A DNA stretch of 60,383 nt from Gemmatimonadota bacterium (GTDB lineage: Bacteria; Gemmatimonadota; Gemmatimonadetes; Longimicrobiales; Gaopeijiaceae). Positions 870 through 3,629 of the stretch are shown here, one piece after another (position 1 is the stretch's first letter; each line of letters begins with the position of its first letter). The notes beneath the pieces are model-generated. The model was not told the origin of the DNA, searched no databases, and saw only the letters and a list, made by a program, of their open reading frames with translations. Both the position numbers and the translations under genes were made by a program. Location of the stretch: NCBI GenBank assembly GCA_026706635.1, contig JAPOYJ010000083.1:1-60383 (forward strand), read 5' to 3'.

Positions 870-1373
870 ATTGATCTCATGAGCGCAAAGAGGGGGCCGG
901 ATCACTGAGCTGGTCCGGGGCAGACGATCCGGCCGAGACGCTCCGCCCCGAGCAGCACGTTGCCACCTACATGCTCACGGAGGTGAGGGTGGTGCTCCGG
1001 GCGCTTGGCGGCGTGACCAGGAGCTTGTTACGCGGACGAGTCGGAGCGGACGACGCTCCCGCCCGGGGAGCGTGGGCGGGCGGATAGTTCGCGAGCCTCC
1101 GCGCGAGCACCCGACGGACCACCCGAGCCTGGAAGCTGAAGGAAGCGGCCTACAACCTCTGGAACAATCAGCCGACCACATTGTACACAGTACTATGTGA
1201 CTTCGGTGTGCCTGCAGCACCACGGCCCGAGGCAAGGAGCAGGAGTGCGGATTGCGGTGTGCGTCGAAGACTATGGGGGATGTCCTGACTGAGGCCGAGA
1301 CCGGTGCGCCCGAGTCGTCCGGCCTGGATTGCGATCGGGCGGTGGAGTAGCCGGAGACCCGGAGGAGGCGAGA
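870..1373. other. Intergenic region with a vapC gene scrap
   Basis: No convincing gene is seen in these 500 bases. Bases 926-963 match 404-441, inside the adjacent PIN gene, at 36 of 38 positions and in the same orientation, so this is a remnant of a second, related PIN gene. The rest lacks recognisable coding, apart from a near-palindrome at about 1183-1200 containing TGTACA. Confidence 0.5.
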
Positions 1374-2375
1374 ATGAACAGGGCGGTAACGATGGCACTG
1401 CTGGTGGCGGTGGCCTGCAGCGAAGAGACGGAACCGGAGGCGCCGTACCCCGCCACGGTGTTGGTGTCCCCGGAGACCCTGGAGTTGGCCAAGCTAGGGG
1501 AAGAACTCCGCCTGACCGCCATAGTCAAGGACCAGAACGGCAATGCCATGGACACCGTGCGTGTCCAGTGGTCCAGCGAAGACGCAGCGGTGGCGTCGGT
1601 CAACCCGACGGGTCTTGTCAGCGCCCAGGGGAGCGGCGAGACCAGGATTCTCGCCGCTGTCGGGGACATCTCGGGTGCAGCGGCCATTACGGTGAGTCTG
1701 GTCCAGCGGGATGCACTCATGAAGCTCTTCGAGAGCCTGAACGGAGACGGTTGGAACAGGAAGCGCAACTGGGGAACCGAAACCGCGCTCGGTGAATGGG
1801 CCGGCGTGACGACGGACGAAGACGGCAACGTTGTGGGTCTGTCCCTCGCGCGCAATAACCTGAGCGGGGAGATCCCAGCCGAAATCGGGCTCTTGAAACA
1901 CTTGGTGGGCTTCGACCTGGCTTTCAACGAAGACGTCGCGGGTACCATACCGCCCGAAGTCGGCGAACTGGAGAATCTCACAGCACTGCTGTTGCACCAT
2001 AACGCCCTGACCGGCGGAATTCCGCGCGAGATCCTGCAGCTGAGCCGACTCGATACCCTGGACCTCCACCACAATCAACTGTCCGGGCCCCTGCCGGAAT
2101 GGCTTGGAGACCTGCCGGCAGTCGGATACCTCAGTCTCTGGGGCAACGACTTCACGGGCTCACTGCCAGCCTCGCTGGGCGATCTGGAATCCCTGGAGGA
2201 TCTCTACGTCAACACTCTGGAGCTGAGTGGCCCGCTGCCACGAAGCCTGATGAACCTCTACCTTAACTCGTTCTTCTGGTATTGGACCGACCTCTGTTCG
2301 CCCCCTGACGACGAGTTCCAGGCGTGGCTCGAGTCCATCCGCTACCACGAGGGGGGTAGCGTCTGCGATCAATGA
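1374..2375 (+). CDS. Putative lipoprotein with a bacterial Ig-like (Big_2) domain and leucine-rich repeats
   Basis: A 333-residue exported protein. The ATG at 1374 is preferred because GGAGG lies about 10 bases upstream and it opens directly into a hydrophobic signal ending LVAVAC, a plausible but imperfect lipobox. Residues about 25-105 resemble a Big_2 fold (VSPETLELAKLGEELRLTA, VKDQNGNAMDTV). From about residue 120 there is a GDGW...NW capping segment, then about five plant-type leucine-rich repeats with the N-x-L-S/T-G-x-I/L-P pattern (NNLSGEIPAEIG, NALTGGIP, NQLSGPLPEWLG). Such proteins are thought to act in cell-surface binding; a ligand cannot be named. Confidence 0.8.
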   Translation: MNRAVTMALLVAVACSEETEPEAPYPATVLVSPETLELAKLGEELRLTAIVKDQNGNAMDTVRVQWSSEDAAVASVNPTGLVSAQGSGETRILAAVGDISGAAAITVSLVQRDALMKLFESLNGDGWNRKRNWGTETALGEWAGVTTDEDGNVVGLSLARNNLSGEIPAEIGLLKHLVGFDLAFNEDVAGTIPPEVGELENLTALLLHHNALTGGIPREILQLSRLDTLDLHHNQLSGPLPEWLGDLPAVGYLSLWGNDFTGSLPASLGDLESLEDLYVNTLELSGPLPRSLMNLYLNSFFWYWTDLCSPPDDEFQAWLESIRYHEGGSVCDQ

Positions 2376-2529: not shown

Positions 2530-3117
2530 ATGATGCGCAGAGTCACCTTGGCGGCCGCGACGGCCGCAGCTCTCGGCACGGCCGCGCTGGACAAGGCCGC
2601 AGCCCAGGAGACGGACGGCCTCATCGGCGTCGGGGCGATGGCCCCCGACCTCGAGCTGGACGGCGCGACGCGCCACGGCGTCCTCCGCGAGAAGATCCGG
2701 CTGAGCGACTACCGCGGCGAGACGGTGGTCCTAGCCTTCTTCTTCAGGGTCAGGACCCCTGGCTGAACGGTTCAGATGAGAGCGTACCGTGACCAGTACG
2801 CAGAGCTCTTCAACGAAGGCCGCAACGTGGTTCTGATGGCGATCTCCAACGACCCGGCGGAGGCGGGCGCGTCGTGGCTGAAGGACGAGGATTTTCCGTA
2901 CGTCTTCGGCAGCGACCCCGACGGTGCCGCCTTTGCAGCATTCGGCGACTCGCCCCGGGACGGCGGCATGGTCGGCAGCCGCGCCGTGATCGTGGTCGGG
3001 CCGGACGGCCGCGTGGCCAAGGTGATCCCCCGGTTCAACCAGGTGGACCCAGGGGCCTACTCGGAACTCGCGGCCGTGATCGACGAGGTGACGCCGGAGG
3101 CGGAGGAGGGGTCCTGA
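2530..3117 (+). CDS. Candidate selenocysteine-containing peroxiredoxin (AhpC/TSA family), exported
   Basis: Two reading frames, 2530-2766 and 2776-3117, are in the same phase and separated only by TGA at 2764-2766. Read through, they give one 195-residue AhpC/TSA protein: signal peptide to about residue 26 (AAAQ), redoxin start GAMAPDLELDG, VVLAFFFRVRTPG, then the TGA at codon 79, then TVQMRAYRDQY. The TGA falls precisely on the peroxidatic cysteine of the family's TPxCT motif. A hairpin at 2782-2801 with its loop 21 bases past the TGA fits a bacterial SECIS. The product would reduce peroxides outside the cytoplasm. The alternative is a Cys-to-stop nonsense mutation. The 3' end overlaps the convergent thioredoxin-like gene by about 60 bases. 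Confidence 0.72.
2782..2801 (+). promoter_or_regulatory. Candidate bacterial SECIS hairpin
   Basis: GCGTAC (2782-2787) pairs perfectly with GTACGC (2796-2801) around an 8-base loop CGTGACCA. The loop begins 21 bases after the in-frame TGA and has G as its second base. Both are features known for bacterial SECIS elements, which bind SelB and lie within the coding region just after UGA. A competing 5-bp stem, ACGGT/ACCGT (2767-2771 with 2786-2790), is also possible. Confidence 0.6.
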
Positions 3118-3629
3118 AGGAGCGCCTCTACGGCCTCGACGAGCTCCTGGTTGGGCCCTGCGCCCGTTGAGACCACTCTTCCCTCCCCGTCCACCAACAC
3201 CACGATCGCTGTCGTGAGCGCCCTGTAGGCCCTCACGGCCTCGCCGCCCGCGTCGTACACGTAGGGGTACCCGTGCGAGTGCCGCTCCACATGGCGGCGC
3301 ACCCTGCGGCGCGACTGCGAGACCGCCACGGCGACCGCCACAACGCTGACTTCTTCCCCGAAGCGCTCCTGAACGCGGTCGATCTCCGGCTGCAGCGCCT
3401 CGCACTGCTCGCACCACGACGCCCAGAACTCGATTAGCGCTGTGCGCCCGCCGATGACCTCGAGGAGCGAGACGGGGTTGCCCTCCATGTCCTCGACGAG
3501 AGCGTCCGGCGCCGGCGTGCCGGGGGGGAGCCCGAGTCCGCTCGAGCTCTCCTGGGCGGCGGAGGCCAAGGGGATCGCGCAGGCCAGGGCGGCGGCGGGA
3601 GCGATGGCTAGGCGACTCCGTACGCTCAC
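3057..3629 (-). CDS. TlpA/ResA-like thiol-disulfide oxidoreductase
   Basis: A 190-residue thioredoxin-fold protein with an N-terminal signal peptide (cleavage near ASAAQE). The active site is in FWASWCEQCEALQPE, a CxxC typical of TlpA/ResA proteins, which reduce disulfides outside the cytoplasm, for example during cytochrome c maturation. The fold continues with VSVVAVAVAVSQ and IVVLVDGEGRVV. In place of the usual cis-proline region there is RALTTAIVVL, so the cis-Pro seems missing, which is odd. It converges with and overlaps the seleno-peroxiredoxin candidate. The DsbD-like protein at 9234-9959 could supply electrons. Confidence 0.8.
   Translation of the reverse strand: MSVRSRLAIAPAAALACAIPLASAAQESSSGLGLPPGTPAPDALVEDMEGNPVSLLEVIGGRTALIEFWASWCEQCEALQPEIDRVQERFGEEVSVVAVAVAVSQSRRRVRRHVERHSHGYPYVYDAGGEAVRAYRALTTAIVVLVDGEGRVVSTGAGPNQELVEAVEALLQDPSSASGVTSSITAASSE

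Follow-up and report, generated by a model that had tools for sequence, protein, structure and literature searches.

An in-frame TGA almost certainly read as selenocysteine in a putatively exported peroxiredoxin of Gemmatimonadota

The stretch of DNA analysed here (60,383 nucleotides, referred to below as the window) corresponds to contig 59 in a Gemmatimonadota genome of 2.8 Mb and 96% completeness. It carries a peroxiredoxin gene with a TGA codon inside its reading frame and, on the opposite strand, a thioredoxin gene. The features of the locus are as follows:

2530..3117, plus strand: seleno-peroxiredoxin gene, 195 aa with selenocysteine (Sec) at position 79; the AhpC/TSA domain comprises residues 34-164
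2530..2604, plus strand: signal-peptide-like N-terminus, residues 1-25, MMRRVTLAAATAAALGTAALDKAAA; predicted cleavage after AAA, followed by Gln26, which suggests export
2743..2745, plus strand: Phe72 codon, seven residues before Sec (position -7), at the place of Pro in the PxxxTxxC motif
2764..2766, plus strand: TGA, Sec79, the peroxidatic residue
2782..2801, plus strand: bSECIS-like hairpin; stem 2782-2787 / 2796-2801, loop 2788-2795, CGTGACCA; loop consensus CGTGATCA
2980..2982, plus strand: Arg151 codon, invariant
3057..3629, minus strand: exported thioredoxin of ResA/TlpA-like type with the sequence WASWCEQC; its gene is convergent with the peroxiredoxin gene and overlaps it at the 3' end; a conserved neighbour and proposed reductant

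The gene located upstream (window 1329-2375, plus strand) is leucine-rich-repeat-like and had no match in the available flanks of the relatives.

The reading frame starts with the ATG at 2530 and ends with the TGA at 3115-3117, and translating the inner TGA as Sec gives a single frame of 195 aa. The Pfam analysis showed that the match to AhpC-TSA (PF00578, E 2.5e-21) runs across the inner TGA, from residue 34 to residue 164. In the window gene and its relatives alike, there is one inner TGA per gene and it always occupies the catalytic position, which reads TPGUT in the window gene vs TRGUT in most of the relatives. The comparison with 19 close relatives revealed an amino-acid divergence of 17.3% upstream of the TGA (residues 33-77) and 16.5% downstream of it (residues 93-185), and on either side the third codon positions account for most of the changes. 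As the divergence is nearly equal and falls mostly on third positions, we conclude that the part downstream of the TGA is translated. The original prediction, made from the letters of the window, had placed this TGA in phase within one AhpC/TSA protein, at the position of the peroxidatic Cys and with undiminished coding quality behind it; all three claims held, and the same alignment column is Cys in 28 homologues. The gene thus shows what is expected of a bacterial selenoprotein, namely an in-frame UGA at the catalytic residue with coding sequence beyond it.

To see how the TGA is distributed, orthologues were collected from genomes of the same family and of the class. An orthologue was found in 86 of the 121 same-family genomes (weak, non-orthologous matches in two further genomes, G054 and G077, were left out of this count, and the orthologue of G031 is split across two contigs). 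The TGA form is present in 85 of them and the TGC form in one. Among the 85 genomes with the TGA form, selA was detected in 80 and tRNA-Sec in the remaining 5, while the only TGC-form genome of the family (G114) has neither selA nor tRNA-Sec. The orthologue is present in other families of the class too. Of the 135 sequences in the non-redundant set, 107 carry Sec and 28 carry Cys at the column of the inner TGA. The alignment to Cys homologues that had been suggested along with the original prediction therefore gave TGC at the Sec site of 28 homologues and TGA in 107 genes. TGC-bearing relatives with signs of nonsense decay, which would have spoken against a selenoprotein, were not what this alignment showed; the reverse was seen, as it is the hairpin that has decayed in the Cys forms.

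The named relatives are metagenome-assembled genomes (MAGs) of Gemmatimonadota / Longimicrobiales, and the search of the plasmid collection returned distant matches only (<40% identity). Three sequences labelled Gammaproteobacteria (L090, L092, and L094) show 65% identity to the window protein, the same as the Gemmatimonadota sequences L097-L099, and probably come from mislabelled MAGs. It should also be noted that one genome, G168 (L149), carries tandem copies on the plus strand, one with Cys (926-1486) and one with Sec (1477-2049), both having Pro at position -7.

That 107 non-redundant genes from many genera and families share this TGA bears directly on whether a Cys codon (TGC/TGT) was simply mutated to TGA in one genome, either in a pseudogene or through a sequencing error: this reading has the inner TGA itself in its favour and nothing more, purifying selection is equal on both sides of the codon, and we rejected it as having practically no chance of being correct, since the TGA is conserved across the class.

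The search for selA, selB, selC, and selD, which had been suggested as a check, found all four in the same genome above the curated cut-offs: SelA with 474 bits, SelB with 330 bits, SelD with 386 bits, and tRNA-Sec (selC) with 77 bits and a TCA anticodon. The SelD gene (L017; G000 contig 1, 1264-2184, minus strand) itself contains a TGA within its frame, at the U of the motif GAGUACK. As SelD carries Sec, the genome contains at least one other selenoprotein. In two TGA-form genomes with an intact hairpin, G274 (L117) and G155 (L114), no tRNA-Sec match was obtained at E <= 1e-9; these genomes are 85% and 91% complete, respectively, and the gap is probably due to missing contigs.

A code in which TGA is read as Trp or another residue throughout the organism was rejected as well and is vanishingly improbable, as the window gene ends with an ordinary TGA stop at 3115-3117 (the relatives end in TAG/TGA), the single inner TGA per gene is confined to the catalytic site, where Trp is unable to replace the peroxidatic residue, and the full Sec machinery is present. 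Such a code would also call for TGA codons within many ordinary genes of the genome, and these were not seen.

The hairpin behind the TGA, GCGTAC-CGTGACCA-GTACGC, has a perfect 6-bp stem and an 8-base loop, and 21 bases separate the TGA from the loop, exactly as had been predicted. The bacterial SECIS element is a stem-loop located just behind the UGA, with a loop of 3-14 nt that has G as its first or second base (the bSECISearch model). The window hairpin fits this description and is nearly invariant in the 107 Sec genes. Its 20 bases are exactly GCGTACCGTGATCAGTACGC in 98 of these genes, and the others differ by 1-2 bases, nearly all of them in the loop. All 107 Sec genes share one and the same 3' arm, and 106 of them share the 5' arm; in the TGC homologues, the arms have decayed. 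A pattern search allowing for <=1 mismatch found the motif once in the genome.

The codons within the hairpin were then compared in 49 Sec genes sharing <70% identity, with the limitation that the binomial figures of this test ignore relatedness. Ala is encoded by GCG in 49/49 genes (background 39%), Arg by CGT in 46/48 (background 10%), and Asp by GAT in 46/49 (background 33%), CAG was found in 48/48 genes, and TAC in 49/49 at each of two positions. The codons adjoining the hairpin vary freely, in plain contrast to those inside it. Since synonymous sites of the hairpin are frozen, the constraint acts on the DNA and not on the protein alone. It is this conservation, and not the folding energy, that raises the hairpin above chance: its energy alone was not significant against shuffled sequences (z = -0.95 and -1.29), it was not the minimum free energy fold in the 80-nt context, and no Rfam family, SECIS or otherwise, matched this site. 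No compensatory base changes were seen in the stem, which is almost invariant among the Sec genes and so gives no covariation signal for pairing. The SECIS-like role proposed for the hairpin is nevertheless borne out by its arms and synonymous sites, conserved across the 107 Sec genes and decayed in the Cys forms. Two codons outside the hairpin are also skewed in the window and its relatives. Arg75 (2752-2754) is encoded by AGG, CGA, or CGG, with AGG at 46% vs a background of 10%, and Gln82 (2773-2775) by CAA at 67% vs 9%. The skewed codons may add to the sequence context in which the UGA is decoded.

With the Sec machinery complete, the TGA column kept in 107 non-redundant genes, and the hairpin intact in the Sec forms, the original selenoprotein reading stands. 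Comparative sequence evidence indicates that the UGA at 2764 is decoded as selenocysteine by the SelA/SelB/SelC/SelD of the genome and that the hairpin beginning 15 bases behind it directs this decoding. The apparent stop codon almost certainly specifies the active-site selenocysteine of a probably secreted enzyme that would destroy peroxides.

The predicted structure of the protein is confident (mean pLDDT 87.6), and its closest matches are Bcp/PrxQ and the 1-Cys AhpE. Together with the PF00578 match, the predicted peroxiredoxin fold identifies the product as a probable peroxiredoxin of the Bcp/PrxQ-AhpE structural type. Arg151, which we take by homology to be the active-site Arg of peroxiredoxins, presumably forms with Thr76 the pair of peroxide-binding residues. 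Thr76 (position -3) is present in 96% and Arg151 in 100% of the Sec forms, as in peroxiredoxins. Gln26, the first residue after the predicted cleavage site, is invariant across 77 aligned homologues, and the signal-peptide-like start points to export to the periplasm. The mature protein has no Cys besides the Sec site and no CxxC/UxxC motif; the mature part of the 107 Sec forms lacks a conserved Cys, with one stray Cys in one sequence. Judging from the sequence, the enzyme is of a 1-Sec type with no resolving Cys. In the periplasm, Sec79 with Thr76 and Arg151 would reduce hydroperoxides and would itself be converted into selenenic acid. With no resolving Cys in its own chain, the enzyme would have to be reduced by a dithiol from outside.

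The neighbouring thioredoxin gene is the best candidate for this role. Downstream flanks of 1 kb or more were available for 86 Sec loci; a ResA/TlpA-like gene is directly convergent (tail-to-tail) in 57 of these, and no relative of this gene was found in 120 kb of background sequence. In 28 of the 86 loci, the gene is absent from the available flank, so the partner is not universal. Some of the Cys homologues have a ResA/TlpA-like gene upstream on the same strand. The conserved gene neighbourhood suggests that the CxxC thioredoxin encoded next to the 1-Sec enzyme is most likely its reductant and would serve as its electron donor.

The absence of this neighbour from about a third of the loci would also agree with a selenoprotein that serves mainly as a seleno thiol-disulphide oxidoreductase or a chaperone, or with a peroxidase reduced by another thioredoxin or a small thiol, and so would the lack of a resolving Cys and the lost Pro of the motif, in which the protein is unlike canonical peroxiredoxins. 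Against another role, the protein retains Thr76 and the invariant Arg151, its nearest folds are the Bcp and AhpE peroxiredoxins, and it has neither CxxC nor UxxC; we therefore consider this alternative rather unlikely. The explanation that accounts best for the whole of the data, to which we assign a probability of about 0.96, is a true selenoprotein gene with hairpin-directed Sec decoding, whose product would be an exported 1-Sec peroxiredoxin with a ResA/TlpA-like donor.

Known Sec peroxiredoxins (TxxU) comprise a single characterised enzyme and sequences of marine metagenomes (PMC13188914, PMC1088965, PMC2398784). The characterised enzyme is PrxU of Eubacterium/Peptoclostridium acidaminophilum (Sohling et al. 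2001, as cited in PMC13188914), and Prx (TxxU) is among the commonest selenoprotein families in the Sargasso Sea and GOS data (PMC1088965, PMC2398784). The window protein resembles PrxU (NF040737) in belonging to the AhpC/TSA family (PF00578) and in having Sec as the peroxidatic residue and T at -3. It differs in its signal-peptide-like start and in a mature part free of other Cys, and it scored 35.3 bits against the PrxU cut-off of 270. Bcp/PrxQ (NF006960; PDB 3hjp, 3drn) are the best neighbours in both sequence and fold, with a score of 45.7 against the cut-off of 140 bits; however, these are cytoplasmic Cys enzymes, many of which have a resolving Cys, whereas the window protein has Sec and no resolving Cys. 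The 1-Cys AhpE of Mycobacterium tuberculosis (PDB 1xxu, 4x0x) has a similar fold (target-normalised TM about 0.86) and likewise a single redox residue, but it has no Sec and is about 25% identical. The Prx-like / redoxin selenoproteins of uncultured marine bacteria also have a thioredoxin fold (PMC1088965, PMC2398784); they carry a UxxC pair, whereas the Sec of the window protein has no partner Cys.

The window gene has Phe at position -7 and thus lacks the full PxxxTxxC motif of peroxiredoxins. AhpE has Cys with the usual Pro motif. In Sec peroxiredoxins, PxxxTxxU has been described as highly conserved (PMC13188914); unlike these PrxU-type enzymes, the window lineage mostly has Phe/Tyr in place of Pro. 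Because of this departure, and because its scores lie below the PrxU and Bcp cut-offs, we placed the protein as a variant of Sec peroxiredoxins and not as PrxU. Sec peroxiredoxins as such are already known, and what is described here is a class-wide variant.

Among the 107 Sec forms, position -7 is Phe in 79, Tyr in 16, Ile in 1, and Val in 1 (97 non-Pro), and Pro in 10; all 28 Cys forms have Pro. Four of these Cys forms (L107, L108, L109, and L139) are nested among Phe/Tyr Sec forms on the trees, one of which was built without the columns of the -7 trait and the hairpin. The independent Sec/Cys contrasts all run in the same direction and none in the opposite one, and since only four of them are well supported, the sign test falls short of significance (p 0.125-0.25).

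This small number of contrasts, as well as the ten Sec forms that kept Pro, would fit a Phe/Tyr residue that is unlinked to Sec and distinguishes a clade whose use of Sec is coincidental. The presence of Pro in every Cys form, including the four nested ones, and the lack of any contrast in the opposite direction make such a coincidence doubtful. With selenocysteine in place, the Pro at -7, which is otherwise strictly kept, seems to become less necessary; the pattern is plain in the alignment, and Sec would be its cause. We lean, by a narrow margin of confidence, towards a wider picture of class-wide exported 1-Sec peroxiredoxins in which Sec made the Pro dispensable, with an aromatic residue instead, each return to Cys restored it, and the enzyme acts with a ResA/TlpA-like partner in periplasmic peroxide defence.

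Our literature search found no description of selenoproteins of Gemmatimonadota, although such descriptions may exist. The finding adds a single-Sec peroxiredoxin, probably exported to judge from its N-terminus, to the selenoproteome of this phylum. Gene callers that treat TGA as a stop would split the gene in two, and its annotation is now settled for the whole, largely uncultured class. The swap of Pro for an aromatic residue, which accompanies Sec and is absent in the Cys forms, bears on what an enzyme gains from selenium other than speed. Should Sec free a constrained position of the active site, this would explain why the conversion of Sec to Cys takes more than one change.
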